NCBI GenBank assembly: GCA_001784175.1
Contig: MFPR01000033.1
Coordinates: forward strand, 62,573 to 126,572
Direction: 5' to 3'
Source: Candidatus Lindowbacteria bacterium RIFCSPLOWO2_12_FULL_62_27
GTDB taxonomy: Bacteria; Lindowbacteria; 2-12-FULL-62-27
Length of the DNA: 64,000 nucleotides
Shown: in pieces, positions 4,624 to 21,286 of the stretch
Layout of the letters: each line of letters opens with the position of its first letter
Position numbering within the stretch: the stretch's first letter is position 1
Notes under the pieces: model-generated
Seen by the model: the letters and a program-made list of their open reading frames with translations, nothing else
Told to the model about the DNA's origin: nothing
The model's database searches: none
Translations under genes and position numbers: made by a program

Positions 4624-4651
4624 ACTATAAATGACGCCGGGACGTTGTCAA
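4624..4651 (-). promoter_or_regulatory. Sigma-70-type promoter of the small-kinase-PP2C-kinase-small operon
   Basis: On the minus strand TTGACA (4651-4646) is followed by a 16-nt spacer and TATAGT (4629-4624). Transcription would start near 4617, leaving a leader of about 30 nt with an AGGAGG ribosome site before the ATG at 4585. It lies in the short divergent gap with the plus-strand kinase. Confidence 0.65.
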
Positions 4652-4702
4652 CCTCGGAATTTAAACTTGCGCAACCCTCCGGCCTATGTTCCAATTTTAT
4701 CT

Positions 4703-6463
4703 GTGATACCCGCGTACGTCGGCAAATACAGGATCCTTGAAGAAATCGGCCGGGGTGGAATGGGCGAGGTCTATCTTGCCGAGGACGCCATCCACAAGAA
4801 CCGGGTCGCGCTGAAACTCCTGCCGGAATTTCTGTCCAAAAACGAATCCTTTCAGGAACGGTTCGCGCGCGAGTGCAGGGCGCTTCGAGGCCTCGATCAT
4901 CCCGGAATCCCGAAGCACTTGGAGGATGGCGAGGTCGACGGCCGCCGCTATTTCACGATGGAATACGTGGAAGGCCGCATGCTGTCGACCCTCCTGGAAT
5001 CTCATCCGGACAGGGTGAATGAAAAGTTGATTCAGGACGTGCTGTACACGGTGGCGAAGGCGCTGGCCTACGCGCACGGCCGCGGCATTCTCCACCGGGA
5101 CGTGTCTCCGAGAAACATCCTCGTCGCCAAGTCAGGCGAGGTCAAATTGATTGATTTCGGCATCTCGAAACTGGCGGACGAGATAACGTTGACCGCGACC
5201 GGCCAGCATCTCGGCACACCGGCCTTCATGGCGCCAGAACAATTCTCGGCCCCCGGCGCGGGGGATGTGGACGGGAGAGCCGACGTCTGGTCGCTGGGGG
5301 TCGTGGGATTTCAGATGCTGACCGGCCGGTTGCCGTTTCCCGGCGAAACCCAGATTACCTTGATGCGGAAGATTCTGGACCCGGCGGTGCCGGTGCCCGC
5401 CGTTCTGGAGGTCCATCCCTCCGCGCCGGCTTCTCCTGCGCGAATCGTGGACCGCGCCCTTCAAAAAAACCGCGCCCATCGGTACGAATCGGCCGAAGCG
5501 ATGGCCCGCGCCCTCGAACAGCCGAACGAGCTTCCGGACGAAACATTCAGCCCGTCCCAGCGATATTGGCCGAATCAAATCGTCTACCTGCTTCACGCGA
5601 AGCGCTGGGCGCTGGTCGAGGAGGAAGGCGCCTTCGGCGAGTGGACCTATTTTGGGTTCGCCCGTCAGGGAGGGGATGTGAGCCGCAGGGTTTGTGGGTC
5701 CGGGTCCGCCGTTCAGTTGGCGCCCGAAGCGAAGTGCACCGAATGCAGGGGCCGAATGACGACCGCCCGGTTTTGTTCGGCCTGCGGGCTGATTGCGAAA
5801 GATGCCGTCTCGCTGTGCTTGCCTGTGATCGCGCGGGGCCGGGCAGCGCAAACTTCCGGACCCGGCCGGTCGAACAAGAAGAGGATACTGGCCGCGGCGG
5901 GCGCCATTGCCGCAGTGGGGGTGGGCCTGTTCTTTTGGCTGAGGCAGCGTCCGACCGCCAAAGATCCGACGGTGTATGCCGGCACGACGGGCCGAACGCC
6001 GGTCCAGTCAAGCATCATAGTTCCGGTCGACCCTTCCAAAATCAACATCAACGCCGCGCCGCTGAAGGAGCTGGGGCGCATCCCCGGACTTGGGAAGAAG
6101 GACGCCCAGCAGATCATCCTCCTGCGGGAGATCGCCGGGCCCTTTCAATCCCTCGATGATCTCTTCATGATGCCGGGAATCTCAGGAAAAGATATGCAGG
6201 CACTCAAGCCGCTCGCCTACGCAGGCGCGGCGGCCGAAAAACTGCCGATGCGACCCAAAGTGAATTTGAATACCGCAACGCTCGACGAATTGAAGAAAAT
6301 TTTCCCCAAACTGGACGTGCATGATTCGCTGGAACCTCTTCTTGAATACCGTAATACACGCAAACATTTCCGCGCGCTGGAGGAGATCGCCAACGTGCCC
6401 GGATTCGAGACGTTCGAGAAGCGCTACTGGCTGGTCAGCCGGCTGGCCACCGTGACCCCATGA
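4703..6463 (+). CDS. Transmembrane Ser/Thr kinase: kinase, beta module, zinc ribbon, TM, two HhH units
   Basis: The GTG at 4703 is taken as start (586 residues) because it places GKYRILEEIGRGGMG near the N-terminus as in the paralogues, and because the frame's upstream ATG at 4631 lies inside the divergent promoter. No clear ribosome site supports either. In the new numbering the order is: kinase (about 5-270) with HRDVSPRN, where Ser replaces the usual catalytic-loop Lys; RYWPNQIVYL..KRWALVEEEG module (about 286-325); zinc ribbon CTEC..CSAC (345-361); membrane helix about 395-413 after KKR; HhH units at about 445-506 and 519-582. The protein ends in KRYWLVSRLATV, a tail shared with two other kinases here. 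Its stop overlaps the next kinase start in ATGA. Confidence 0.9.
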   Translation: MIPAYVGKYRILEEIGRGGMGEVYLAEDAIHKNRVALKLLPEFLSKNESFQERFARECRALRGLDHPGIPKHLEDGEVDGRRYFTMEYVEGRMLSTLLESHPDRVNEKLIQDVLYTVAKALAYAHGRGILHRDVSPRNILVAKSGEVKLIDFGISKLADEITLTATGQHLGTPAFMAPEQFSAPGAGDVDGRADVWSLGVVGFQMLTGRLPFPGETQITLMRKILDPAVPVPAVLEVHPSAPASPARIVDRALQKNRAHRYESAEAMARALEQPNELPDETFSPSQRYWPNQIVYLLHAKRWALVEEEGAFGEWTYFGFARQGGDVSRRVCGSGSAVQLAPEAKCTECRGRMTTARFCSACGLIAKDAVSLCLPVIARGRAAQTSGPGRSNKKRILAAAGAIAAVGVGLFFWLRQRPTAKDPTVYAGTTGRTPVQSSIIVPVDPSKININAAPLKELGRIPGLGKKDAQQIILLREIAGPFQSLDDLFMMPGISGKDMQALKPLAYAGAAAEKLPMRPKVNLNTATLDELKKIFPKLDVHDSLEPLLEYRNTRKHFRALEEIANVPGFETFEKRYWLVSRLATVTP

Positions 6464-8319
6464 CGCAAGCGGAACGGTATTTCGGGAAATACAAGCTCAT
6501 CGAGCCGCTCGAACTTGGAGGCATGGGGGAGACGTATCTGGCCGAAGACGTCGTCCAGGGAGCGCGACTGGTCGTGAAAATCATGCCGGCGCCATTGTCA
6601 AAAAATGCGGCCTTTCGGGACCGGTTCATGCGCGAGTGCAAGGTGCTGCGAAAAATGGATCATCCCGGGATTCCCCGGCACCTTGAGGAAGGAGAAATCG
6701 ACGGTCGACGCTATCTCGCGATGGAATTCATCCGGGGCCAGTCCCTGGCAAGAATCATGGGGCAAGCGCCGGCCCGGATCAACGAGAAACTGACCGAGAC
6801 CGTTTTGCGTGGGGTGGCGCGGATTTTGGCGTATGCGCACAGCCTGGGCATCCTTCACAGGGATGTCTCTCCCCAGAACATCCTGATCACCGAAGGCGGG
6901 GAGGTCAAGCTGATCGATTTCGGCATCTCGAAACTGGCGGACGAGATCACGCTCAGCATGACCGGCGAGTACCTCGGAACGCCGGCGTACATGGCGCCGG
7001 AGCAAATCATGGCGTTTGGGACGAAGGCGCCGGACGCGAGGTCCGATGTCTGGTCCCTGGGCGCGGTCGGGTTCCGGCTGTTGACCGGCCGGCGCCTCTA
7101 TGATGAAGATTCGCCCGTCGAAGTGGTGCGGCGCATCACCGATCTCGTGGTCCCGGCGCCGTCTGTTCTGGATGTCAAGCCCGATGCGTCACCGCGTCTG
7201 GCTCGGATCGTCGATCGGGCGCTGCAAAAAATTCCGAAATACCGTTATGAATCGGCCGAGGCCATCGCACGCGAGCTGGAACGATCTGACCGGGCCACGC
7301 CGGATTTCTTCAGTCCGGCGCGAAGATATTGGCTGGATCAAATGGTCTATCTTCCTTTTGCGAAACGCTGGGCGGTGGTGGACGAAGAAGGCCGTTTCGG
7401 AAACCGGTTCTACTTCGGACTCGTGCGCCAGGATGGTTCCCGGAGCCGGCGGGTCAGCGGCTCCGCCGCCCCAAGTGCCGGCGTCTCCGACGCCGGCCGC
7501 AGCAGCGGCTGTTTCGCCGATGACGTACGGTCCCGTGCGGATTCCGAGGGAGGCCATGGGTCAAAGGCCTGCACCGAATGCGGCGGTGGCCTGCATCCCG
7601 ATGAGTTCTGCCCGGCCTGCGGGCTGATCGCCGCAGGCGCGGCCTCGTCCTGTACCGTCGTTGCCCGCCACGCCGATATCACGCCGCCCGGGCCGTCCCG
7701 ACCCGGCCGGATCAAAAAATGGGCGTTCGGAGCCGCGGGCGTCGTTGCGGCGGCCTTGGGCGTGTTTCTCTGGATGAAACTCACCCCGGACCGGCCCGCG
7801 GCCGTCGGTCAACCGAAGGCGGTTCAGCCGGCGGAGGCGCCGGGTGGAGAAGTTCCGGTCGACCCTTCCAAAATCAATATCAACGCGGCGTCCCTTGCCG
7901 AGCTCGCGCAAATCAAGGGAATCGGTCTCCAGACCGCTTCGCAGATTGTCATCCTTCGCGAAATCGCCGGACCCTTCAAGCACATCAACGAGGTCGGCAT
8001 GATCCCCGGCGTCACGGAGGAGACGATGGAGGAACTGAAACCCCTGGCCTACGCCGGTCCCGCCGCTGAAAAATTGCCGAGCCGGCCCAAAGTCAATATC
8101 AATACCGCGTCACCGGAGGAACTGAAAAAAACATTACCCCGCATGAAGAATAAAATCGTCCGGCAGGAACCATGGGCCGCGCTCAATCATCTCATCGAAT
8201 ACCGGCAAGAAAACGGCCCCTTCAAAAATATGGAGGAGATTCGCGAAGTCCCCGGATACGGCCGCAGCGGGGTCGGCAAGAATTACTGGCTGGTGTCCAA
8301 ATTGTGCACGGTGCAATGA
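6460..8319 (+). CDS. Transmembrane Ser/Thr kinase: kinase, beta module, zinc ribbon, TM, two HhH units
   Basis: The 619-residue paralogue of the preceding kinase is translationally coupled to it by ATGA. Its layout is: kinase about 8-275 (HRDVSPQN 133-140, DFG 153-155), RRYWLDQMVYLP..KRWAVVDEEG module 288-311, a long linker containing the repeat-encoded [13 protein letters not shown] (334-346), zinc ribbon CTEC..CPAC (371-387), membrane helix about 421-439, and HhH units about 470-531 and 544-615 ending in KNYWLVSKL. The glycine loop is LGGMGE rather than GxGGMG. The repeat element sits exactly between the beta module and the zinc ribbon, where the paralogue has only a short linker, so it looks like a tolerated in-frame insertion. 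Confidence 0.92.
   Translation: MTQAERYFGKYKLIEPLELGGMGETYLAEDVVQGARLVVKIMPAPLSKNAAFRDRFMRECKVLRKMDHPGIPRHLEEGEIDGRRYLAMEFIRGQSLARIMGQAPARINEKLTETVLRGVARILAYAHSLGILHRDVSPQNILITEGGEVKLIDFGISKLADEITLSMTGEYLGTPAYMAPEQIMAFGTKAPDARSDVWSLGAVGFRLLTGRRLYDEDSPVEVVRRITDLVVPAPSVLDVKPDASPRLARIVDRALQKIPKYRYESAEAIARELERSDRATPDFFSPARRYWLDQMVYLPFAKRWAVVDEEGRFGNRFYFGLVRQDGSRSRRVSGSAAPSAGVSDAGRSSGCFADDVRSRADSEGGHGSKACTECGGGLHPDEFCPACGLIAAGAASSCTVVARHADITPPGPSRPGRIKKWAFGAAGVVAAALGVFLWMKLTPDRPAAVGQPKAVQPAEAPGGEVPVDPSKININAASLAELAQIKGIGLQTASQIVILREIAGPFKHINEVGMIPGVTEETMEELKPLAYAGPAAEKLPSRPKVNINTASPEELKKTLPRMKNKIVRQEPWAALNHLIEYRQENGPFKNMEEIREVPGYGRSGVGKNYWLVSKLCTVQ
7450..7499 (+). repeat. Two-hairpin GC-rich element, copy B, in a kinase linker
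   Basis: The core CCCCAAGTGCCGGCGTCTCC is identical to copy A but is read in a different frame ([10 protein letters not shown]). It contains the same 9-bp stem with a TCC loop. Confidence 0.75.
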
Positions 8320-8352: not shown

Positions 8353-9921
8353 TCATTCCACCGTCGCCAGTTTGGAGACCAGCCAGTACCGCTTTCCGGT
8401 TGTTGGAAATCCCCGGACGTTGGCGACGTCTTCGATGGTCTTGAAGGGACCGTTCTTCTGCCGGTGGTCGAGCAGCTCGGCCAGTTCCTTCCACGGATTG
8501 TTCGTAGCGTGAACATTGTATAGTTGAACAAAGACGGCCTTGAGTTCCGCTTCCGTGGCCGTGTTGATGTTGATCTTCTTTCTCTTCGGCAGCGCCTCCT
8601 TGGGCGGCCCGGCGCGGGCGATGGATCTTAGGGCCTCCAGATTCTCGGGTCTCATGCCCGGCATCATGAAGAGTTCGTCGACGCGGGCGAAGGGGCCGGC
8701 CATTTCACGGAGGATGACGATCTGCCGGGCAGTATAGGGATTGAGAGGCTCAAGGTCCGCCAGGGCTTTTTCGGAGGCCTCGTTGATGTTCACAAGCGAG
8801 GTGTCGCCTGACTCGATCCATCGGGGCTCAACGGGGCCGGCCGGCGTTGGGTCGGCGTCGGAGACGCCGACACTTGGGGCGCCGGAGGCGCTGATCCGTG
8901 ACGCCGGCACTTGGGGCCTCGGAGAGGCTGATCCAGAGACGCCGGCATCACGCGCCGATACGAGCCGCCATCCACCCCACACCAGGGCCGCAAGGACGAC
9001 GACGACGGCCAATCCGGCCGCCATGACAGGGATGCCGCGCGGGGTGAGCGCGCGCGCGGGCGACGGCGTCTGCGAGACGGCCACGGGTTGGCCCGGTGGT
9101 CCCGCACTATCCTCCAGGATTTCCGCGACCTGCCGGTACCTGGCGCCGATCCGCCGCTGGAGACATTTGCGGATGATGCTCACCGACCGCGGGGACAGGC
9201 TGGGATTCAGGGCGCCGACATCGGGCGGATCGAACCGCGGGTCCAGGATTTTCCGGATGACGGCGGGATTCGTTTCTCCCTCAAACGGAAGTTGTCCTGA
9301 CGCCAGTTGATACCCGAGAACGCCGAGCGACCAGATGTCGGCGGATTCGGTCACGTTCTTGGACGAGTCGATCTGTTCCGGCGCCGAATAATGGGGCGTG
9401 CCGAGAATCTGGCCGGTCAGGGTAAAGTGCGCCTCCTGAACCATTTTCGAAAGGCCGAAATCCGTGATGCGGATTTGACCGTCGGCCAGCACGATGATGT
9501 TTCCCGCCGTCAGGTCCCGGTGCAGGACACCCTGTCGATGCGCGGCGGCGACGCCCTCGCATATCTTCGCGAACAGGCCCCGCCACTCGTCGTCGCCGGG
9601 CAGGCCGGCCCGACGGGCCAGCCAAGTCCGCATATCCGCGCCTTCGATCCATTCCATCGCGAGAAAATACCGGCCGGCGTCCATGCCGAAATGGTAGGCG
9701 CGCGGGATCATCTCATGCGAAAGGGTCAGATAGACGCGCGCCTCGCGCCGGAATCGCTCGACAAATTCCTGCCGGTCGCTGAACGACTCCGGAAGAACCT
9801 TCACAGCCACCACCTTGCCGTCCTCCGGGTCCTCCGCGCGGTAGACCGTGCCCATGCCGCCGCTGGCGACGACCGACTGAATCTTGAACCGGCCGATCCA
9901 TTTGGGGGTGCCGGCGGTCAT
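8353..9921 (-). CDS. Transmembrane Ser/Thr kinase with two extracytoplasmic HhH units, no zinc ribbon
   Basis: The 522-residue protein has a kinase domain at about 9-270 (VAVK Lys41, HRDLTAGN 135-141 with Thr in place of the catalytic-loop Lys, DFG 154-156, SAPEQ) and a membrane helix at about 297-315. A low-complexity linker at about 322-366 is almost wholly encoded by two tandem copies of the two-hairpin repeat. HhH-like units follow at about 376-437 and 448-518, ending in KRYWLVSKLATVE. It lacks the RYxL module and zinc ribbon, so together with 9918-11759 it forms a second kinase subtype (PEDG..VAVKVLPE, CLQRR). It overlaps the upstream kinase by 4 nt (ATGA) and converges with the plus-strand kinase ending at 8319. 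Confidence 0.92.
   Translation of the reverse strand: MTAGTPKWIGRFKIQSVVASGGMGTVYRAEDPEDGKVVAVKVLPESFSDRQEFVERFRREARVYLTLSHEMIPRAYHFGMDAGRYFLAMEWIEGADMRTWLARRAGLPGDDEWRGLFAKICEGVAAAHRQGVLHRDLTAGNIIVLADGQIRITDFGLSKMVQEAHFTLTGQILGTPHYSAPEQIDSSKNVTESADIWSLGVLGYQLASGQLPFEGETNPAVIRKILDPRFDPPDVGALNPSLSPRSVSIIRKCLQRRIGARYRQVAEILEDSAGPPGQPVAVSQTPSPARALTPRGIPVMAAGLAVVVVLAALVWGGWRLVSARDAGVSGSASPRPQVPASRISASGAPSVGVSDADPTPAGPVEPRWIESGDTSLVNINEASEKALADLEPLNPYTARQIVILREMAGPFARVDELFMMPGMRPENLEALRSIARAGPPKEALPKRKKININTATEAELKAVFVQLYNVHATNNPWKELAELLDHRQKNGPFKTIEDVANVRGFPTTGKRYWLVSKLATVE
8833..8946 (-). repeat. Tandem pair of two-hairpin GC-rich elements, copies C1 and C2
   Basis: Two copies lie head to tail on the minus strand inside the kinase linker. 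C1 is read A-P-S-V-G-V-S-D-A-D, while C2 is read R-P-Q-V-P-A-S, so the two neighbours are translated in different frames. Confidence 0.7.
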
Positions 9922-11759
9922 TTCGAGAACACCTGGATCTGCCGCTCGAATTCCTCGCCGGACATGCGGGGGATGCCCATCTCCATGGCTTTTTGCAATC
10001 GCGGAGATCCATCGTCCACGCCGGCGCCGACAACAACCAATTTCACATTTTTTGAAATAGCCCCGCCGCCGCCCTTTGAGTATAAAGCGCCGAGGGCCTT
10101 CAATCGCTCGCCGGCCTGCTCCTGAGTCAGCCTTGGGAGCTGTCCCACAATCACGACGCGCTTCTCCTTGAACGGATTCTCGCCCTTGAGCGCCTGAACG
10201 ATGAATTTCGCAGTCGCCTCGAATTCGTCGTCCGAAAGGACCGGCGCGGCGCCCATCAGCGGGATCTCCTCGTCCAGGCGGATCCAGTTCGGACGATGGC
10301 GCTTCTTTGCGGGAATTTCCACCACTTTGGGCAACCGAAAGACGCGGAGAACGATCGCGTGGAGAGGATTACTCACTTCTTTGGCGTGCTTCAACGCGTA
10401 ATCGAGATCGTGCGCCATCCAAGGATCCATCCGCCGGATTTCGGCCTCGCCGATCTTGACGTTGAGGACGGAAAGCGCAACGTATTGGATGGGTACGATG
10501 TCTTTGCCGTAGGCCGCCACCGGCGGGACTTTTCCGGGTTTGAGTTCGAATCCCTCAATCGGCGACACTGCCGGATACAGGAACAAAACTTTCCCGGGCT
10601 TCACGCCTCCCGTCATGCCGCGGAGCGCGAGGACCGTTCGGCCGGCCCCCAGCGCCGCGGCATGGCGCGGGTCGAAGAGAAGGGCGCTCGATGAGGAGGC
10701 GGGGAGTTTGTAGGATCGGAAATCTGACGGGGGAGCCCATACCGGATTGTCCGTGGCCGAAGTGACTCCGTCCTCGGCGGCAGGCGCGTCTTCAAGGTCG
10801 ACGGCGGGGCCTCGGCCCTGCCACCACCAGCCGAGACCGGCAAGGATCACCAAGCCGGTGGCCGCCGCAATGATCCGCGAAACCAGCCGGCGCCGCCCGG
10901 CCGCGGAGGCGCGCCGGGCCACCGGCTCGGAGGGGTCGCCCTTCAAATCCTCCGCGATCTCCCAAGCCTGCGCGTATCGCCGGTCCGGATCGCGTTCGAG
11001 ACATTTTCGAATGACGCTTTCCGCCAGGACCGACAGTTTCGGATTCAGGCTCCGGGGCGGCGGCGCCTGACAGGCCGGATCCAGAATTTTCTTGATCACC
11101 TCGGCGCTCGTGGCGCCGTCGAAGGGCCGGCGGAGCGTCGCCATCTGGTATCCGAGCACGCCGAGAGACCAGAGGTCCGCCTGCGCGGTCACGTCTTTCG
11201 TCGATTCGATCTGTTCCGGCGCCATATAGTGCGGCGTGCCGAGAATCTCGCCGGTCACCGTGAAATGCTCCTCACGGACCATGGTCGAGAGACCAAAATC
11301 GGTGATCCGGACGTTGCCGTCCGGCATCAGGATCACGTTGCCGTCCGTCAGGTCGCGGTGCAAAATCCCCTGGGCGTGCGCCGCCGCCAGGCCGTGGGCG
11401 ATCTTTGCGAAAATCGAAAGCCACGGCCCGTTGTCCGGAAGGTCGGTCTGCTGGGGCAGCCAGGCGCGCAGACTCTTGCCGTCGATCCATTCCATCGCCA
11501 TGTAATACCGGCTGCCTTCCATCCCAAAGTCATATATTTTCGGGATCGCCTCGTGCGACAGGCTCATCCCGATCCGCGCCTCACGCTTGAACCGCTCCAC
11601 AAACGACTCCTGCCGCCCGAAGGCCTCCGGTAAAACCTTGATCGCCACCACTGTCCCGTCCTCCGGATCCTCCCCGCGGTAGACCGTCGCCATCCCACCG
11701 GTCGCGGCGACGGACAGCACGCGGAACTTGCCGATCTTTTCAGGCGATGGCGCGGTCAT
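9918..11759 (-). CDS. Transmembrane Ser/Thr kinase with a novel extracytoplasmic domain and C-terminal BRCT domain
   Basis: The 613-residue protein has a kinase domain at about 9-272 (VAIK Lys41, HRDLTDGN, DFG 154-156), a membrane helix about 294-313, and then two extracytoplasmic domains. Residues about 365-525 form a domain also found in the kinase at 17302-18840, marked by KPGK..LYP, RRMDPW, RVFRLP, VEIPA and PVLSDDEF. Residues about 532-611 look like a DNA-ligase-type BRCT domain: KRVVIVGQLPRLTQEQA, the GA..S..VKLVVVG core, then KAMEMGIPRMSGEEF. BRCT domains bind DNA ends or phosphopeptides and are normally cytoplasmic, so this placement is odd. The gene overlaps both neighbours by 4 nt. 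Confidence 0.9.
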   Translation of the reverse strand: MTAPSPEKIGKFRVLSVAATGGMATVYRGEDPEDGTVVAIKVLPEAFGRQESFVERFKREARIGMSLSHEAIPKIYDFGMEGSRYYMAMEWIDGKSLRAWLPQQTDLPDNGPWLSIFAKIAHGLAAAHAQGILHRDLTDGNVILMPDGNVRITDFGLSTMVREEHFTVTGEILGTPHYMAPEQIESTKDVTAQADLWSLGVLGYQMATLRRPFDGATSAEVIKKILDPACQAPPPRSLNPKLSVLAESVIRKCLERDPDRRYAQAWEIAEDLKGDPSEPVARRASAAGRRRLVSRIIAAATGLVILAGLGWWWQGRGPAVDLEDAPAAEDGVTSATDNPVWAPPSDFRSYKLPASSSSALLFDPRHAAALGAGRTVLALRGMTGGVKPGKVLFLYPAVSPIEGFELKPGKVPPVAAYGKDIVPIQYVALSVLNVKIGEAEIRRMDPWMAHDLDYALKHAKEVSNPLHAIVLRVFRLPKVVEIPAKKRHRPNWIRLDEEIPLMGAAPVLSDDEFEATAKFIVQALKGENPFKEKRVVIVGQLPRLTQEQAGERLKALGALYSKGGGGAISKNVKLVVVGAGVDDGSPRLQKAMEMGIPRMSGEEFERQIQVFSK

Positions 11760-12553
11760 TGGAGGAGGTGAAAGGCGTTTTTATAGGGCGTGATGTCCAA
11801 CGACCAGTCGCTGGTGCGCAGGAACACGCGGGTTCCATCCGGTCTGAAGGCTGCAGCCCGTGTGGAACCTGTGCCGGATCCCTTTGGCAAGCCTTCGATG
11901 ACCTCCGGCGACAAGATTTTTCCTGGAACCACGAACAGGTCGCCGGACTCTTCATGGTCGATGACTACAAAGTAGGGTCCGAAGGCCGCGAGCGCATGAG
12001 AGATGCCCGTACTTAAACTGACAAAGTTTCGATTCTTCGCCCGGACCGTCGTACGATAGACATAACATTTACCATCCCCGACCTCATACGTTCTTGCATT
12101 TCCGCCGATTCGCCCTTCCACAAGAATCCGGTCAATCCTGACATCGAATTTTGCCGCGAAACGCAGATCGTCGTCGGACATCTCTTTCCTGCGGTACGTC
12201 GGCTTCTCCGACGGATGCGCGACCGGCGCGTCATCGCCGGACCCCCCTTCATCCCCCCTTGTAAAGGGGGGAACGAGGGGGGTTGACCCATTTTCCTGCA
12301 CCGGGTTTCCGCCTCCTCCGGCGTCAGGACGCGCGGCCCAGCCGATGACGGCGCCGGCCGCGAAAAAGCCAGCGAGGAGCGCCGCCGCCGTAGATGCCCG
12401 GATTTTTCGCCGCCGAACTCCAATCTGGACGCTGCTGCTGATTCCCTCCCACACGGCGCCCGCCAGTTCCGCCGCGCTCCACGCGCCGCAGGCGGGACAC
12501 GCGTGGCCGGGTTGGACATCGCCGTGACCGCAGGTGTTGCAGGATGAACTCAT
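11756..12553 (-). CDS. Zinc-ribbon membrane protein of unknown function
   Basis: The ATG at 12553 is chosen (265 residues). The upstream frame extension would be encoded by a dispersed repeat. An N-terminal zinc ribbon (C5xxC8 ... C19xxC22) is followed by a membrane helix at about 53-73 and an extracytoplasmic domain of about 190 residues that I do not recognise. The first part of that linker (about 89-104) is encoded by a C-rich/G-rich dispersed repeat, so the repeat has entered the coding region in frame. It lies between two kinases, with an ATGA overlap to the downstream one. Its topology matches the kinase-less proteins at 23607, 25641 and 26400, so it may be a partner of the kinase ending at 12642. 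Confidence 0.75.
   Translation of the reverse strand: MSSSCNTCGHGDVQPGHACPACGAWSAAELAGAVWEGISSSVQIGVRRRKIRASTAAALLAGFFAAGAVIGWAARPDAGGGGNPVQENGSTPLVPPFTRGDEGGSGDDAPVAHPSEKPTYRRKEMSDDDLRFAAKFDVRIDRILVEGRIGGNARTYEVGDGKCYVYRTTVRAKNRNFVSLSTGISHALAAFGPYFVVIDHEESGDLFVVPGKILSPEVIEGLPKGSGTGSTRAAAFRPDGTRVFLRTSDWSLDITPYKNAFHLLQ
12239..12286. repeat. Dispersed C-run/G-run inverted repeat inside a coding region
   Basis: CCCCCCTT and AAGGGGGG arms around a GTA centre, followed by a GAGGGGGGTT arm, form a nested inverted repeat of a type usually found between genes. Here it is translated in frame (GSTPLVPPFTRGDEGG). Confidence 0.6.
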
Positions 12554-12641: not shown

Positions 12642-13853
12642 TCATTCCCCTTCACCGCCCGGTTCCTCTCTCACCTCAGGCGGCAGCCGGCTTTCATCCG
12701 TCGTCTGCACAGGCCCAACCGCCTGGAGATTTGAAACGGGGTGCGCAATCCAACCACTGCCAACTCCTGCGGCGAGGGCGGCCGCCCACGCCATCATCCA
12801 TTTCGCCGGGACCCGCCGCCGCCCGGCCGCCGGATACGGCGATTTCTCATCCGCCGAGCAGGAAAGGCTGAGATTTCGCCCGTCGATCTCGGCCTCCATC
12901 ACGCCGGATCGGCCCAGCCGGCCGCGCCGTACGACCCGGCCCATCTTGCCTCCGAGATGTTCGTGCACAAAGACTTCGCCCCGAACATACTCTCGATTCG
13001 GATCGTAGACGAACGAGCGGGGGATTGGATCGGGCGAATCGAAATCGGCCACGAGTTCATCGCACGACGAATACCGGCCCGCCGGATCTCTGCAGAGACA
13101 CCGGAGGACCAGCAGATTCCATTTCAGATGCGGGCCGGCACCGCCCTCCAGCGGGGCTTTGAGGGCGTGCCGGGGATTGAGGATCGACGAAACGATCGTG
13201 GCGATGTTTTTGGAGGGAAACGGCAATGTTCCCGTCAGCGTTTCGTACAGGACGGCGCCCAAAGACCAGATGTCCGTCCGCGCGTCGATCGGGCTGCCCG
13301 TTTCGAACTGCTCGGGCGCCATGTAGGCCGGCGTGCCGAAATGCTGGCCGGTCATGGCGAGGGTCATTTCGTCGACCAGCCGGGATATCCCGAAGTCGAT
13401 GACTTTCACGTGGCCCGCGTCTGTCACGATGATGTTTTTCGACGAGATGTCCCTGTGAATGATCCCGAGGCCGTGCGCATGTCCGAGCACCCCCGCGACG
13501 CCCCGCAGAACCTTTTCCGCAAGTTCCACGCCAAGGCTCGATGTGCCGTTGGCCAGGACCCATTCGAGCGGGCGGCCTTCAAAATACTCCATCGTCACGT
13601 ATCGCTTGCCGTCGATCTCGCCGTCTCCGTAAATCGTCGGCACGCCCTCGTGCGACAGCCGGCCAAGCGACGCGCATTCGCGCTTGAACCGCTCCCGCCA
13701 CTGCTTGTTCCTGGAGATGTGCTCCGGCAGGATTTTCAGCGCGACTTGCCGGCCGCCGCGCGACGGGTCCTCCGCCAGATAGACCTTGCCCGTCCCCCCG
13801 TGCCCGATCTCGCGAATGAGCTTGAACGTGCCGAAGAATTCGGTGCTCAACAT
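12642..13853 (-). CDS. Transmembrane Ser/Thr kinase with a short extracytoplasmic tail
   Basis: The 403-residue protein has a kinase domain at about 8-275 with an altered glycine loop (GHGGTG), VALK Lys, HRDISSKN (Ser for the usual Lys), DFG and APEQF. A variant of the juxtamembrane module follows (NREYVRGEVFVHEHLG..GRVVRRGRLG). A membrane helix lies at about 352-370, and only about 30 polar residues remain outside. The missing sensor may be supplied by the zinc-ribbon membrane protein encoded next, or it may have been lost, since a dispersed repeat lies 39 bp past the stop. It follows the small gene by 9 nt. Confidence 0.9.
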   Translation of the reverse strand: MLSTEFFGTFKLIREIGHGGTGKVYLAEDPSRGGRQVALKILPEHISRNKQWRERFKRECASLGRLSHEGVPTIYGDGEIDGKRYVTMEYFEGRPLEWVLANGTSSLGVELAEKVLRGVAGVLGHAHGLGIIHRDISSKNIIVTDAGHVKVIDFGISRLVDEMTLAMTGQHFGTPAYMAPEQFETGSPIDARTDIWSLGAVLYETLTGTLPFPSKNIATIVSSILNPRHALKAPLEGGAGPHLKWNLLVLRCLCRDPAGRYSSCDELVADFDSPDPIPRSFVYDPNREYVRGEVFVHEHLGGKMGRVVRRGRLGRSGVMEAEIDGRNLSLSCSADEKSPYPAAGRRRVPAKWMMAWAAALAAGVGSGWIAHPVSNLQAVGPVQTTDESRLPPEVREEPGGEGE

Positions 13854-14256: not shown

Positions 14257-14285
14257 ACAATAGATGTGCGGCGCCGGTTTTGCAA
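14257..14285 (-). promoter_or_regulatory. Promoter of the small-kinase operon, probably giving a leaderless mRNA
   Basis: On the minus strand TTGCAA (14285-14280), a 17-nt spacer and TATTGT (14262-14257) lie 7 nt before the ATG at 14249. Confidence 0.5.
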
Positions 14286-14320
14286 TGGATTTTTTCGTGG
14301 CGCAAAGATATATAGGAGCG

Positions 14321-17293
14321 GTGGCCACAGGACAGGTGAAGCAAGAGACGTCGAGTTCGGCCGGACCGGTCGTGATGTTCGACGCCGAGTTCCGGCTCGG
14401 TCTTCAGCGCCTCCTGGCTCTGCTTGGCGACCGGGAGTCTTTTTCCATCGTCCAGGCGGATCTGGGGGACGAGGACCCTCAGATCCGGGCCGGCGCGATC
14501 CGGCTGATCGGCGAGCTGGGGCTGTCGGAGTACCTGCCCAACATCCTCGACCGGCTTCAGAAAATCTACGGAAAACAGCAAAGCCAGAAAGAGCTGCCGT
14601 TCACCGTCGCGGTCTTCAGCGCCCTTAAAAAGATCGGCACCACGGAAATCGCGGAGGAGTTGTCACGCCGGTTCGAGCAGTTGCCGGAGTATTTGAGATT
14701 GCCGGCGCTCTACGTGATCGCCGCGCACGGCGCCGGCAGCGAGCCGATCGACCGATTTTTTCAGGGACTCCTTCGGCCGGACACGCCGCATCCCGATCTT
14801 CGACCCGACGCCATCGAGCTGTACGGCGCGCTGGTCGCCAGAGAGCCTGGCCCGGCCCTCGCGATGTTCCGTTCGGCGCTGACGGAAGGGAATCCCGATG
14901 TGTCGCGCGCGGCCGCAGCCGCCCTCGCCGGCCTCTTGGCCGAACGCGTTTTCGAAATTTCCGACTGGCCGCGACTTCCGTCCGGCCTCCAGGCGCAGAT
15001 CCTTCGGATCGCGCCCTCCGTGCCGGCGGCGGCGCTGGGGGAGGCGATGAAGTCCGAACACATAGAGGTGAAGCAGGAGGCGGTGACCCGGATCCTGAGC
15101 GCGGCGGAACCGCCCCACGCCATCCTCGACGTCATCCGCATCTTCAGCGCCGAATCCGAGTGGGACACGGTCGGCGCGGACGCCCTGGCCTCGACGCTCG
15201 CGCGATGGTACTCGACGGGCCAGGGACGGCTGGCGCTGGTTCAGATGTTTTCCTACATCCTGCGGCGCCAGACGGGCGTATTGGAGAAATTCCTGCCGAC
15301 CCCCGGCGCCATCCTGGCCGACATCGACCGCCTCATCGCACGCCTGCGGCGCGCCCTTTTGCGCACCGGATCGCCCCGGATGGCGAACGCCCTCGCGGAT
15401 GCGCTGATCGGGAAAGCGGCGCCGGCCGGCGTCATCGACCTCGTGGACGGCTTGCTGTCGCTGTATCCCAGGGAAAAAGAGCTTCGCGCGACGGTCGAAG
15501 AGCTTCTCGGCATCCCGGACGAGCGGACACGAAAACGAATTGCGTCGGAAGTGAGGCAGATTCCGGCCGGGGCGTTCATCCCGCTCAAGAAGATTTTGAA
15601 AATCCTCCCGCCCCTCAAGGAACCGTCGCTGAATCCCACGCTGAAAATCATCCGCGACCTGTCCCGCGCCCACTCCGACGCCGAACTCGAATGGCTGGCC
15701 GTCACGCACCTCGCGGGCTGTGGCGATCCGTCCGCGGCCGGCGCCGTCTGCGACGCGGCGCTCAGGGGCGTCGCCGAATCCGGCGACGGCGAGTCGCACC
15801 GCGGCCTTGACGTTTCGGTGTGGCTCCGGACCCTGTCGATGGATACGGCGCCCGCACGGATTCGAGAGACGTTGCTGGCCATCATCCGCCGGACATCCCA
15901 GCCGGATACGTTTCGGGCCGCGGTGGAACTCTTGAGCGTCAAAAACGATCCGCAGGTGTCCAGCGCCCTCATGGAACGTCTGCCGGACTTGGTGGGCACG
16001 CTGCGATTCACGGCCATCCAAGCCATCGGCCGCATGGGCGACCGGGTCCATCTGCCTGTCTTTTTGGCGGAACTTTCGGCGGACCGGCAGGAGCGGCAAC
16101 TGGCAGGCCTGTTGGGGCTGGAGAAACTTCTTGACGCCAATCCCGATCTTCCGCCGAACACCGTGAGCACGCCGCTCTATGAGTTGAATCGTTGCCCCGA
16201 TCTGACCATCCGGACAGCGGCGGTGGGACTCCTGGTCCGCCTGAACGATCCCAATCGCATGGACCTCGTGGCCGACATCGTGGCGGCGCCTCAGCCCGTC
16301 CCTGCGAGCGCCTACCGGCTCGTCTCCGCGCTCGCGCAAGAGAATATTTCGGAGGAGGACCGCACAAAATTATTCCGCGCCCTCCTCAGCCGGATCGGAA
16401 GAATGTCGGACGAGGATTCGGAGCCGATCGCCGACGCCTTCCGGGCCGTTCTGGCCGGCCGGCCCTTCGCGTCCCTCCTGCAGACGGAGCGGCAACGCGC
16501 GGACGAGGTGCAGGATTTGAGCGACCTGCTCCGGCGCCGGTCGGGCGCCCAAGCGGCGACCGATTTCAAAATATCCAAGTCCATCCAGCGCCGGTCAATC
16601 GCCTTCATCGACATCACCGGGTTTACGCCGCGCGCGTCCCGGCTCACGGCGATCGAGCTCGGCGTGTTCCTCGTTCAGGTCGAAGACGAGATTCTCCCCT
16701 ACATCAAGAAACACGAAGGCGCGCTGATCAAACGCCTGGGCGACGGATTCCTCGTTTCCTACCCGGGTTCGGTCCGGGCCCTGACCTCCGGCCTCGAGAT
16801 GCTGCAGTTTCTTGCCAGGAAAAATCAGCTCCTTCAGGAGGAGGACCGCGTCCGGCTGCGGATCGGCATCCACACCGGGGACGTGCTGGTCGCGCGGGAC
16901 GACGTTTTCGGCGACACCGTCAACGTGGCCGCGCGGGTGGAGGCGCTGGGCAAGCCCATGTGCGTCACGTTTACGGAGGACGTGTTCAGGGATCTGCCCG
17001 GCCGCAACCGTGTGATCGAGCCGCTGGGACCGACGAAGCTGAAAGGGAGGGACGAGCCGATCGAGATTTACCGGATCCGGCTCGACGTCATCTACGAGGC
17101 CCAGACCGACGCGATCCGCAAGGTCATGGCCATGCCGGACTGGATGCCGAAAATCAAAAAATTCAAGACCGACCTGGAGGAACGGTACCGGCGGCTGTCC
17201 GAAAAAATCGAGGAGGCCGAGCACATGGCCGAGCGCGGCGACTTCGCCCACGCCGAATCCCTCGTCATCGAGATCGAAAAGCAGATGCTGTAG
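14321..17293 (+). CDS. Alpha-solenoid (HEAT-like) protein with C-terminal class III nucleotide cyclase
   Basis: About 990 residues. The first 720 or so are helical repeats of HEAT type (for example DEDPQIRAGAIRLIGEL, NPDVSRAAAAALAGLL), probably a protein-interaction scaffold. A class III cyclase domain follows at about 760-920: FIDITGF with the first metal-binding Asp, KRLGDGFLVSY with the second, IGIHTGDVLVA and FGDTVNVAARVEA. The last 50 residues are a charged coiled coil. No membrane segment is seen. The start is uncertain: GTG 14321 is 6 nt after a TATATA box, but ATG 14264 or 14285 are also in frame. The next kinase starts 8 nt after the stop, so the two are probably co-transcribed. Confidence 0.88.
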   Translation: MATGQVKQETSSSAGPVVMFDAEFRLGLQRLLALLGDRESFSIVQADLGDEDPQIRAGAIRLIGELGLSEYLPNILDRLQKIYGKQQSQKELPFTVAVFSALKKIGTTEIAEELSRRFEQLPEYLRLPALYVIAAHGAGSEPIDRFFQGLLRPDTPHPDLRPDAIELYGALVAREPGPALAMFRSALTEGNPDVSRAAAAALAGLLAERVFEISDWPRLPSGLQAQILRIAPSVPAAALGEAMKSEHIEVKQEAVTRILSAAEPPHAILDVIRIFSAESEWDTVGADALASTLARWYSTGQGRLALVQMFSYILRRQTGVLEKFLPTPGAILADIDRLIARLRRALLRTGSPRMANALADALIGKAAPAGVIDLVDGLLSLYPREKELRATVEELLGIPDERTRKRIASEVRQIPAGAFIPLKKILKILPPLKEPSLNPTLKIIRDLSRAHSDAELEWLAVTHLAGCGDPSAAGAVCDAALRGVAESGDGESHRGLDVSVWLRTLSMDTAPARIRETLLAIIRRTSQPDTFRAAVELLSVKNDPQVSSALMERLPDLVGTLRFTAIQAIGRMGDRVHLPVFLAELSADRQERQLAGLLGLEKLLDANPDLPPNTVSTPLYELNRCPDLTIRTAAVGLLVRLNDPNRMDLVADIVAAPQPVPASAYRLVSALAQENISEEDRTKLFRALLSRIGRMSDEDSEPIADAFRAVLAGRPFASLLQTERQRADEVQDLSDLLRRRSGAQAATDFKISKSIQRRSIAFIDITGFTPRASRLTAIELGVFLVQVEDEILPYIKKHEGALIKRLGDGFLVSYPGSVRALTSGLEMLQFLARKNQLLQEEDRVRLRIGIHTGDVLVARDDVFGDTVNVAARVEALGKPMCVTFTEDVFRDLPGRNRVIEPLGPTKLKGRDEPIEIYRIRLDVIYEAQTDAIRKVMAMPDWMPKIKKFKTDLEERYRRLSEKIEEAEHMAERGDFAHAESLVIEIEKQML

Positions 17294-17301
17294 AGCGTTC
17301 C

Positions 17302-18840
17302 ATGCAGGACATCGGCCGGTATCACATTCTTTCCCTGATCGGCGCCGGCGGGATGGGGACCATCTACAAGGCGCAGGACACCCGGGACGGGCGGATCGTG
17401 GCGTTGAAGACCCTGCACAAGATGTTTCTCGAGAAGGAGGACATCGTGCGGCGGTTTCAGACCGAGGCCCGGGCCTGCCTGAAACTCGTTCATCCGAACA
17501 TCCTCCGGGTCCTCGATTGCGACCGCACGCCCGATACGTTCTATCTGGCCATGGAGTACGTCGAGGGGAAAAGCCTGAAGGAGTATATCAAGGCTCTCGA
17601 CGCGGATTTACCGGAGCAGGTCCTGCTCAGGATTTTTTCGCAGATCTGCGACGCCATGGGCTTCGCGCATCAGCAGGGCGTGCTTCACCGCGACCTGTCC
17701 GCGTCCAACGTCGTCGTGCGGGACACGCTCGACGTGACCATCATCGATTTCGGCCTGTCGAAACTCGCCACCGAGATGACGATGACCCTCACCGGCACCA
17801 TCGTCGGCACGCCCGAATACATGGCGCCGGAACAGTTCACGTCCCTGAAGGAGGTGGACGAACGCGCCGACATCTGGTCCATGGGGATCCTCCTGTACGA
17901 ACTGATCGCGCGGCGGTCGCCGTATGGGGAGACGATCCAGCCCGTGCATCTGACCCGCAAGATCGTCGACGCGCAGTTCGTTCCGCCGCCGCCGGTCCAA
18001 TTCAACAGAAACCTCCCGGCCAAATACGACTGGATCGTCCAGAGGGCCCTTGAGCGGGACCTCGACGGCCGGTATCGGCGCGTGGAAGACATGCTCCGGG
18101 ATATGAAAGCCCATCCCGATGATGTGAAACCGCCCGGAAAAATCGCGCCCGAGCGGCGCGTTGTCTCCCGACTGCGGTATGCGGCAGCGATCGCGATTGG
18201 GGTCTGTGCGATCGTCCTTTTGACATTCTTTATCCTTCATCGGCGTAAGGCGGAACCGCCGCTGGATCGTGCGACATCAACAGCAGCGACGGCCGCGGAG
18301 ACCGCAGTGTCCGTCGCTCTCAAGGAAATGGCGCCGAACGCGGAGGCCCTGGCCCGGGGGATGACCATCTTCGGATATCGGAAGCAGGTGTTCAAACCCG
18401 GAAAACGGTTTGTTCTTTATCCGACGTACAGAAATGTCCGGCCGGAAAAATTCAAGGAAAAGTATCGGCCGCTGGTCGAAGAATCACTGGCCGCCAAAAA
18501 ATCCGGCGTATCCATCAAAGCCTATGCGATCCTTGAAGACTCCGTCAAAGTCACCGGCGCGGACATGGAGCGGCTGGATCCCTATTATGTCTGGACCCAA
18601 GCCGACATGCTGGACTATTGTGGAAACGCGCAAAACGTTTATGTGGTGTTCATGCGGGTCTATCGGCTTCCGCAGGAAATCGAGATCCCTTCGCTTCCAA
18701 GCGGCGCCGTCATCTTCGCCAATCTGGACACGCCGGTGTCCGTGTCCGGCAGCACGCCCGTTCTGGACGACGACGCCTATGGGTCGAGAAAGAGGGAGAT
18801 TCTGACGGCGCTGGGCCGCGGCCTCCCGGAAGGACCGTAG
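17302..18840 (+). CDS. Transmembrane Ser/Thr kinase with the same novel extracytoplasmic domain as the BRCT kinase
   Basis: The ATG at 17302 gives 512 residues and starts directly before GRYHILSLIGAGGMG; the frame is open far upstream, but that is only a shadow of the cyclase gene. Kinase domain about 5-270: VALK Lys36, HRDLSASN 129-136 (Ser for Lys), DFG 149-151, APEQF. Membrane helix about 292-312. The extracytoplasmic part (about 345-505) is one domain with FKPGKRFVLYP, ERLDPYY, MRVYRLPQEIEIPS and TPVLDDDAY, shared with residues 365-525 of the kinase at 9918-11759 but without the BRCT domain. It probably lies in one operon with the solenoid cyclase upstream. Confidence 0.9.
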   Translation: MQDIGRYHILSLIGAGGMGTIYKAQDTRDGRIVALKTLHKMFLEKEDIVRRFQTEARACLKLVHPNILRVLDCDRTPDTFYLAMEYVEGKSLKEYIKALDADLPEQVLLRIFSQICDAMGFAHQQGVLHRDLSASNVVVRDTLDVTIIDFGLSKLATEMTMTLTGTIVGTPEYMAPEQFTSLKEVDERADIWSMGILLYELIARRSPYGETIQPVHLTRKIVDAQFVPPPPVQFNRNLPAKYDWIVQRALERDLDGRYRRVEDMLRDMKAHPDDVKPPGKIAPERRVVSRLRYAAAIAIGVCAIVLLTFFILHRRKAEPPLDRATSTAATAAETAVSVALKEMAPNAEALARGMTIFGYRKQVFKPGKRFVLYPTYRNVRPEKFKEKYRPLVEESLAAKKSGVSIKAYAILEDSVKVTGADMERLDPYYVWTQADMLDYCGNAQNVYVVFMRVYRLPQEIEIPSLPSGAVIFANLDTPVSVSGSTPVLDDDAYGSRKREILTALGRGLPEGP

Positions 18841-18891
18841 TATCTTATCAGAAACCAATAAGACCCGACCGCCCCTCAGAACGTGTGAATG

Positions 18892-18920
18892 TTGTCCGGG
18901 GGCCGCCCTCCAGTTATGAT
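18892..18920 (+). promoter_or_regulatory. Promoter of the HhH kinase operon 18928-24488, leaderless
   Basis: TTGTCC (18892-18897), a 17-nt spacer and TATGAT (18915-18920) are followed after 7 nt by the ATG at 18928. This strongly favours that start over the in-frame ATGs at 18889 and 18916. Confidence 0.65.
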
Positions 18921-18927
18921 CGCGTGG

Positions 18928-21285
18928 ATGCCTGCAGACGCGCGATTCGGCGACTACCAATTGATCCGGGAAATCGGACATGGCGGGATGGGGGCGGTCC
19001 ATCTGGCCGCGCGGCCGGGCGATCCACGGCCCGTGGCGTTGAAAATCGTGCCGGACTATCTCTCCAGAAATCAGACGTTCCGCGACCGGTTCGCCCGCGA
19101 GTGCCAGTCGCTCCGGCGGCTCGAGCATCCCGGGATCCCGCGCATTTATGAGGACGGCGAAATCGACGGCCGCCGGTACCTGGCCATGGAATACGCGGAG
19201 GGCCAAACGATCGAGTCGCTCCTCGAATCGCCGGACAGTCGGGTTTCGGGGGAATTTGTCCGAACCCTCCTGACTGGCGCGGCCCGCATTCTCGACTACG
19301 CCCACGGACGCGGCGTGATCCATCGCGACATCTCCGCGCGCAATATCATCGTCACGCCGTCGGCCGGCATCAAGCTGATCGATTTCGGCATCTCCAAACT
19401 GGCGGACGAAGTCACGCTGACGATGACCGGCCAGCACCTCGGCACGCCCCTCTACATGGCGCCGGAGCAATTTGCCTCGGGCGGCGCCAAATCCATCGAC
19501 GCGAGGGCCGATTTGTGGTCCCTCGGGATTGTGGGATTCTGCCTGCTCACCGGGAAAGCGCCTTATGTGTACGACAATCATCTTACGCTGATGCGGCAGA
19601 TCATCGACCCCGAGATGGTCCTTCCGCCGGCGCTCGATGCGAAGCCGGACGCCGACACCGGCGTCGCCGCCGTGGTGGATCGCCTCCTGCAGCGGAACCC
19701 CGAGCACCGGTTTCAGACGGCGGCGGCGCTTCTCGAGGCGCTCCTGCATCCCGATCAGCCGCTGCAGGAAACCTTCACGTCCGGCCGCAAGTACGCCCTC
19801 AACGAGATCGTGTATCTTCCGCACGTCAAGCGATGGGCGGTGGTGAACGAGCGGGGACGGCTGGGGCGCGCTCCTTACGTGGGGCTGATCCATCACGGCG
19901 GGACCGCGAGCGGCCGGGTATGCGGGATCAAAAAGTCCGTCGCGGAAACAGCCGCGGAACCCTGTCCGGAATGCGGCGGAAAAACAGCAAAGGCGGCCCC
20001 TCAACAGACGGATGTCGGTGGGTTCTGCCTGTCGTGCGGGTTGATTTCCGATTCGTTGATGCCGCTGGGCCGGAAAACCGAAACGAGGGCGTCGGCCGCG
20101 CGCCGGCGGATACTCAAACGCCGTCTGTCCCGCGCCGGGATATGGACAGCCGGTCTCGTATCCGCGGCCGTTCTGATCCATGCAGGGTGGGACCGGTTCC
20201 GCCCGGCGCCTCCGGAGGATAGGGCGGCGGTCGGTTTGATCGAAAGGGAATTTTCCGAAGTCTCCACCAAGTACAACAAGGATGAAGGACTGGTCATGGA
20301 CGTCAATACCGCAGGATTCGAGGATCTGGTGAAGATCAAATTCATGAGCGACAACCGCGCGCTGTTTCTCATCGCCTACCGCCACAATCACGGCGCGTTC
20401 AAAAATATGGCAGACGTCCAAAGCGCCTTGAGCCTGACGGGGCAATACCAGACGGTCCTGGCCCAGTTGAAGGTTGCCTCGCAGTCAGCCGCGCCGCCCG
20501 ACCCCGAATTTCTTCGGAGGTACAGACGCGTCAATATCAACAGCGCCGCTCATGACGAGCTGGTGACGATACCGTTCGTTTCCGAGAAAACGGCCGAGGG
20601 AATCCACGCGTACCGCAAATCCCATGGCAACATGCGGACCATCGACGACGTGCTCAATTCCGGCAAGAGCGAATACGCCTCGCAAATCAAACGCCACCGC
20701 ATGGCATGGTTTGATTTTGTGTCGCTGGGCGACGCCTCTCTCGATCGGACATTTCAGCAGGCCGTGGACGTCTATTATGCCGGCCTTCGGGCGGCGTCCC
20801 AAAAAATTCCGGAATTCACGCGGATTGATCTGAACCACGCGACCGTTCTGGAAATGTCCAAGACCCTGAGAAGCAGTTGGGACGCGCTGGCCATCATGAT
20901 GCACCGACACAAGTACGGCGCCTACCGGAGCGTGGAGGAGTATGTGAAGACCACGAGAATGGAGCGGGCGTTCACCAAGAACGAACGGATGCGCGACATG
21001 AGCCGTCTGACCCTGGAAGCCGCATACGTCACCCCCGGCGACCGGACGGTCACCCTCGACCCGGAGTTCTTGCGCGACTGGGGCGCGCCGTTGAATCTGA
21101 ACACGGCGCCGGACGAGCGAATCGTCCGGATGCCGTTGTTGCTGAAGAAAGAGAAAGAGACGCTTTTGGCGGCCCGGCACGCGCGGAGGCTCCGGTCGGT
21201 GGACGAGCTCTGGCCATTGATGGAGCAAGACGGCCGCGCCCAAAAACGGTTCGATCTCTTGAGGGACTTCGTGACGGTGAAATAA
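18928..21285 (+). CDS. Large transmembrane Ser/Thr kinase with zinc ribbon and four HhH-like units
   Basis: 785 residues from the leaderless ATG at 18928. Order: kinase about 7-272 (HRDISARN 132-139, Ser for Lys; DFG 152-154), GRKYALNEIVYLP..KRWAVVNERG module 286-310, zinc ribbon CPEC..CLSC (346-370), strongly basic stretch, membrane helix about 404-421, then an extracytoplasmic region of about 360 residues. That region has HhH-like units near 455-515, 534-600, 632-700 and 720-785, each opening with (V/I/L)N(I/L)N(T/S)A or a variant (DVNTAG, NINSAA, DLNHAT, NLNTAP). It ends in LLRDFVTVK, as does the next kinase, with which it is clearly a tandem duplicate. The next ATG follows one base after the stop. 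Confidence 0.92.
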   Translation: MPADARFGDYQLIREIGHGGMGAVHLAARPGDPRPVALKIVPDYLSRNQTFRDRFARECQSLRRLEHPGIPRIYEDGEIDGRRYLAMEYAEGQTIESLLESPDSRVSGEFVRTLLTGAARILDYAHGRGVIHRDISARNIIVTPSAGIKLIDFGISKLADEVTLTMTGQHLGTPLYMAPEQFASGGAKSIDARADLWSLGIVGFCLLTGKAPYVYDNHLTLMRQIIDPEMVLPPALDAKPDADTGVAAVVDRLLQRNPEHRFQTAAALLEALLHPDQPLQETFTSGRKYALNEIVYLPHVKRWAVVNERGRLGRAPYVGLIHHGGTASGRVCGIKKSVAETAAEPCPECGGKTAKAAPQQTDVGGFCLSCGLISDSLMPLGRKTETRASAARRRILKRRLSRAGIWTAGLVSAAVLIHAGWDRFRPAPPEDRAAVGLIEREFSEVSTKYNKDEGLVMDVNTAGFEDLVKIKFMSDNRALFLIAYRHNHGAFKNMADVQSALSLTGQYQTVLAQLKVASQSAAPPDPEFLRRYRRVNINSAAHDELVTIPFVSEKTAEGIHAYRKSHGNMRTIDDVLNSGKSEYASQIKRHRMAWFDFVSLGDASLDRTFQQAVDVYYAGLRAASQKIPEFTRIDLNHATVLEMSKTLRSSWDALAIMMHRHKYGAYRSVEEYVKTTRMERAFTKNERMRDMSRLTLEAAYVTPGDRTVTLDPEFLRDWGAPLNLNTAPDERIVRMPLLLKKEKETLLAARHARRLRSVDELWPLMEQDGRAQKRFDLLRDFVTVK

Positions 21286-21286
21286 G

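Follow-up and report, generated by a model that had tools for sequence, protein, structure and literature searches.

We found that the 613-aa protein encoded at positions 9918-11759 (minus strand) of the analysed window, the 64,000-nucleotide stretch of Candidatus Lindowbacteria bacterium RIFCSPLOWO2_12_FULL_62_27 DNA to which all unlabelled coordinates refer, joins a receptor-type Ser/Thr kinase to a DUF1802 domain and a BRCT domain resembling the C-terminal domain of the DNA ligase LigA. Our preferred reading, at a probability of roughly 0.4, is that this is a single-pass receptor kinase whose outer DUF1802-BRCT part would sense nucleic acid beyond the cytoplasm; here the ligand and the outside location are what we infer. 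The domain anatomy of the protein is well supported, with its domain order, kinase motifs, membrane helix, LigA-type BRCT, PUA/ASCH-like DUF1802, operon and swapping of outer domains all taken from the sequence or from prediction. The gene and its parts are as follows:

9918-11759, minus strand: receptor-type Ser/Thr kinase gene with C-terminal DUF1802 and BRCT, 613 aa (ATG start, single ORF)
10941-11738, minus strand: kinase domain, residues 8-273 (PF00069, E = 6e-45)
10830-10886, minus strand: single membrane helix, residues 292-310 (KD 1.95; GRRR before it and an acidic stretch after it)
10212-10697, minus strand: DUF1802 domain, residues ~355-516 (PF08819, E = 3.5e-11; AlphaFold2 model)
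9942-10196, minus strand: LigA-type BRCT, residues 522-606, with pocket positions V538, Q546 and R587 (profiles, predicted fold)

A preliminary description of this DNA had placed a DNA-ligase-type BRCT at residues ~532-611, preceded by a membrane helix and a further domain, and had proposed profile searches against BRCT families and structure prediction as checks. All of this was borne out: one helix lies ahead of the BRCT, the further domain is DUF1802, and profile searches place the C-terminal domain beside the last domain of LigA. The last 160 aa matched the Pfam BRCT family PF00533 above the cut-off (23.5 bits, cut-off 21.3, E = 6.9e-5), a match reported for the isolated C-terminus and not when the full-length protein was the query. 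The same 160 aa matched an NCBIfam LigA model (E = 1.2e-9) at positions 584-662 of 664 only, and a second LigA model also matched the C-terminus (E = 5.9e-7); with the full-length protein as query the NCBIfam LigA model matched residues 522-606 (E = 1.5e-8), and E. coli LigA (2owo) matched the BRCT at 4e-5. The adenylation domain with KxDG and the OB, Zn and HhH parts of an NAD-dependent ligase are absent, only the last ~80 model positions being matched. A displaced ligase end was ruled out, as the genome encodes a separate LigA which keeps its own BRCT (39-40% identical to the one described here). An assembly or ORF artefact was likewise rejected, as the whole ORF is covered by homology and its end overlaps the next gene by 4 bp.

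Residues 317-613 were modelled with AlphaFold2 from eight aligned sequences (mean pLDDT 82.9, pTM 0.72), and fold comparison of the model gave two clean groups of matches, BRCT and ASCH. Model residues 210-297 superposed on the LigA BRCT (Z = 12.1, rmsd 1.6, 78 residues) and on the RFC1 BRCT (Z = 9.6-10.6), so that the predicted fold agrees with BRCT; three of the aligned rows were LigA BRCTs, which guided this part of the model. The solved LigA and RFC1 BRCTs in turn matched a 21-sequence BRCT profile strongly.

The DUF1802 domain (43.7 bits against PF08819, cut-off 25) was modelled with pLDDT mostly of 85-95, the alignment rows over this part being DUF1802 proteins only. For model residues 40-189 the top fold matches were ASCH proteins at Z of about 9-10.3, including ZmASCH (Z = 10.3, rmsd 2.9, 124 residues), EOLA1 (Z = 9.8) and the TRIP4 ASCH domain with and without dsDNA (Z ~8.9). 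The prediction for DUF1802 is therefore a fold of the PUA/ASCH-like kind, from a superfamily which has been described as nucleic-acid-binding (PMC7641849). The literature searched for DUF1802 gave one passing mention and nothing describing the family. In another genome (G048, L085 1462-2970) DUF1802 is followed C-terminally by a region containing the stretch GLDVYCES...ECK, which by eye has the look of a PD-(D/E)XK restriction endonuclease and has no Pfam match; this pairing would fit DUF1802 as a sensor of modified bases.

The gene lies in a unidirectional four-gene operon encoding a kinase, a zinc-ribbon-like protein, the 613-aa kinase and an HhH kinase, with overlaps of 4-14 bases. The other genes of the operon and the related kinase genes around it are:

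12642-13853, minus strand: kinase that opens the operon (56% identity across 355 aa with its positional counterpart in a second, paralogous operon on contig C20)
11756-12655, minus strand: zinc-ribbon-like membrane protein, preceding gene (4-bp overlap with the 613-aa gene; fold matches)
8353-9921, minus strand: sister kinase, next gene, with ComEA-type HhH repeats on the predicted outside (HHH_3, E = 1.1e-20; 4-bp overlap)
17302-18840, plus strand: second kinase-membrane helix-DUF1802 gene, no BRCT (PF08819, E = 2.4e-25)
4631-8319, plus strand: two kinase-membrane helix-HhH genes (profile matches, hydropathy)
18889-23605, plus strand: two further kinases with HhH (helix by hydropathy in the second only)

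A HEAT-repeat protein that ends in an adenylate/guanylate cyclase domain is also encoded between the two DUF1802 kinases (14264-17293).

Of 20 kinases detected genome-wide, half belong to this region, with ten Hanks-type kinase domains inside ~21 kb (1456-22084); the other two genomes of the phylum contain 6 and 4 kinases. The sister kinase at 8353-9921 is 60% identical to the 613-aa protein in the kinase, and the alignment covers residues 1-297 and ends in the helix. Judging from this alignment, the two proteins have a common kinase-plus-helix base and differing outer parts. The outer parts found in the cluster are ComEA-type helix-hairpin-helix, DUF1802 and DUF1802-BRCT, with ComEA-type HhH domains in at least six of the ten kinases. 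A common base with swapped outer parts argues that the outer parts are sensors, and what speaks most strongly for a nucleic-acid ligand is that every kind of outer part examined has a nucleic-acid-type fold. It is this wider context, the PUA/ASCH-like DUF1802 and the ComEA-type HhH sisters, which the preliminary description had missed and which makes nucleic-acid sensing plausible.

The genome as a whole gives 32 HHH_3 matches and has four loci with ComEC-type genes (contigs C2, C26, C28 and C33), an abundance which suggests an expanded apparatus for DNA uptake or DNA handling. In a relative (G002, L034 3205-15977) ComEC, ComEA-like HhH proteins, a PP2C phosphatase and three kinases are found together with an FHA-GAF-cyclase-like protein, and the kinase-helix-HhH genes there adjoin the ComEC, ComEA-like and PP2C genes; this ComEC neighbourhood fits a DNA-uptake reading. 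It should be noted, against a nucleic-acid ligand, that some extracellular proteins with HhH_3 are not known to bind DNA (the sister HhH kinases score with PsbU and GspK-type profiles as well) and that PUA-like domains have other jobs too.

Under the preferred reading, the kinase would sit in the cytoplasm while the PUA/ASCH-like DUF1802 and the LigA-derived BRCT would form an extracytoplasmic sensor. One kinase-plus-helix base would have been copied locally and fitted with varied outer domains, all of nucleic-acid-handling folds. The outer part would bind nucleic acid outside the cytoplasm, for example DNA in uptake or released from lysed cells, and binding might then gather the kinases, leading to cross-phosphorylation and to phosphorylation of cytoplasmic targets. 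Extending this to the whole cluster, as a set of receptor kinases for outside nucleic acid built from captured modules (HhH, DUF1802, BRCT) in an organism with a DNA-uptake-rich lifestyle, is a possibility which we put forward as rather doubtful.

In an alignment of this BRCT with 20 LigA-type BRCTs, the pocket residues Thr16, Arg24 and Lys65 were each conserved in ≥ 90%, and their columns correspond to residues 538, 546 and 587 of the 613-aa protein. The Thr, Arg and Lys of the ligase and RFC1 pocket are here V538, Q546 and R587, of which only the change from K to R is conservative, so that the Thr-Arg-Lys set of a BRCT binding 5′-phosphate DNA ends was not found at these positions; insertions of 4 and 3 residues also lie near them. 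The corresponding residues of RFC1, T415, R423 and K458, are those which we take to be the pocket equivalents required for 5′-phosphate DNA, the residue numbers reportedly coming from Kobayashi et al. 2006. The structural alignment starts at RFC1 403 and model residue 210, and ungapped, 415 would fall on V538. In prokaryotes, work on Deinococcus LigA describes the BRCT phosphate pocket as a binding site for phosphates at nicks in DNA or at its ends (PMC10504179).

As read from these residues, the canonical pocket is degraded and not stripped, because V538 and Q546 are changed yet R587 is conservative. The BRCT is therefore probably not reading 5′-phosphate ends as LigA or RFC1 do, and may instead bind the backbone non-specifically or contact a partner protein. 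The hint in the preliminary description that the domain might bind DNA ends or phosphopeptides in the manner of usual BRCTs is weakened by V538, Q546 and the two insertions, R587 being the conservative change.

Since the pocket changes speak against a plain 5′-phosphate reader, the main rival to the preferred reading is that the outer BRCT serves protein-protein contacts, having lost nucleic-acid binding, and pairs this receptor with the sister HhH kinase or with the zinc-ribbon-like partner. The loss of the pocket Thr and Arg agrees with this, as do the co-encoded neighbours with their 4-bp overlaps and the fact that phosphate-independent protein contacts are common for BRCTs (PMC10386641). 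We nevertheless consider it unlikely, if still a serious contender, given that positive charge is kept at R587, that the domain has a net charge of +4, equal to that of the BRCT of LigA from the same genome, and that outer domains elsewhere in the cluster likewise have nucleic-acid-type folds.

The partner itself has a zinc-ribbon-like N-terminus, an apparent membrane segment and a C-terminal domain (11759-12208, minus strand) predicted with pLDDT 84, the same uncharacterised domain being present at L032 7599-8048 and 8351-8800. The top fold matches of this domain were all PD-(D/E)XK nucleases (Hjc, RecU, PvuII and I-Ssp6803I), with Hjc at Z = 7.8, a value below 8 and borderline by the fold tool's own note. 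No catalytic D...(D/E)xK was obvious by eye in the domain, so that the PD-(D/E)XK-like domain, if real, is probably a binding domain.

The second operon, on contig C20 of the same genome, has the same order of kinase, zinc-ribbon-like protein and kinase-DUF1802, and its kinase-DUF1802 protein is 64% identical to the 613-aa protein in the kinase and has DUF1802 but no BRCT. This paralogue ends at ALKGNVPK, where the 613-aa protein continues with ALKGENPFKEKRVV into the BRCT; in the same frame there is no BRCT remnant 3′ of the paralogue stop, and another gene starts immediately. As the paralogue stops cleanly at the BRCT border, the domain has probably been added to one copy or cleanly lost from the other. 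No second kinase-DUF1802-BRCT protein was found in two other genomes of the phylum, in sets of 145 and 386 whole genomes, or in genome contigs (two scans), viral contigs and plasmids (tblastn), with the reservation that distant relatives escape the pattern-based scans and that the scanned collections may omit records of this genome. The architecture searches returned only ligases, stand-alone DUF1802 proteins or frames with no sign of this architecture. In a tree of 25 BRCTs, the branch of the 613-aa protein's BRCT was 3.55 vs a median end branch of 0.93, a very long branch from which the function of the domain may have shifted; the tree gave no supported source for the domain, the genome's own LigA included.

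These observations would also suit an accidental fusion, in which a ligase C-terminus joined to a kinase-DUF1802 protein is tolerated and drifting without function: a single copy was found, the end of the C20 paralogue is the exact start of the BRCT, and the branch is very long. This explanation seems quite improbable to us, as the fold is confidently predicted with the core glycines and hydrophobic pattern retained, the ORF is intact at 35-40% identity to ligases where long neutral drift would be expected to break it, and the end of the gene overlaps the one that follows tidily, by 4 bp.

The kinase domain has all of its VAIK, HRD (134), DFG (154) and APE motifs, and from these intact motifs the kinase is probably active. 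Of the two 15-residue stretches that flank the helix, the one towards the kinase has a net charge of +4 and the other of −2; in nearly all related kinases having the helix, the kinase side is the more positive. Hydropathy and the positive-inside bias agree, as computed, on an outside C-terminus, and the natural reading of the topology, from the charge bias together with a cytoplasmic kinase, is that the BRCT-bearing C-terminus lies outside the membrane. A cytoplasmic C-terminus, with a hydrophobic segment that does not span the membrane and a BRCT acting on DNA or partners inside the cell, would accord with the normally intracellular location of BRCT and PUA/ASCH domains and with a DUF1802 protein without a kinase in the same genome, and is very improbable given one strong hydrophobic helix with RRR ahead and acidic residues behind, and given that most sister kinases, those with ComEA-type HhH domains among them, have a comparable helix behind their kinase domain.

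Among known systems, the PknB/Stk1 PASTA kinases share with the 613-aa protein a Hanks-type kinase, one membrane helix and an outside sensor (here predicted), and the best NCBIfam model for the kinase part is of PknB/Stk1 type (E = 8e-76), with a score of 256 which is below the family cut-off of 450. However, PknB/Stk1 has PASTA repeats outside, for which the 613-aa protein gave no Pfam match up to E = 1, and DUF1802 and BRCT are found in their place. The BRCT is like the C-terminal domain of LigA in sequence and predicted fold; unlike LigA, the protein has no ligase domains, the pocket Thr and Arg are changed, and the domain is on a membrane kinase and predicted outside. Its predicted fold is also like that of the RFC1 BRCT, which binds 5′-phosphorylated dsDNA, but the equivalents of T415 and R423 are V538 and Q546. 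The predicted DUF1802 fold is like that of the ASCH/PUA-like proteins ZmASCH, EOLA1 and TRIP4 (Z 9-10 over ~124-134 residues, at 10-13% identity), and the searches made gave no example of such a domain in the outer part of a receptor kinase. The sister kinases carry ComEA-type HhH repeats behind a membrane helix; ComEA itself has no kinase, and the 613-aa protein, unlike both, has no HhH.

To our knowledge, extracellular nucleic acid has no established receptor kinase in bacteria, and none was found in the literature searched. Together with its neighbours, the 613-aa protein points to receptor kinases of this kind. For the uncharacterised family DUF1802 the analysis supplies a predicted fold and a clue to function. 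According to a review, BRCT proteins number only one or two in most bacteria, these being DNA ligase and a subunit of DNA polymerase III (PMC10386641). A BRCT outside the cell on a signalling receptor would, if true, put the module to a new use.
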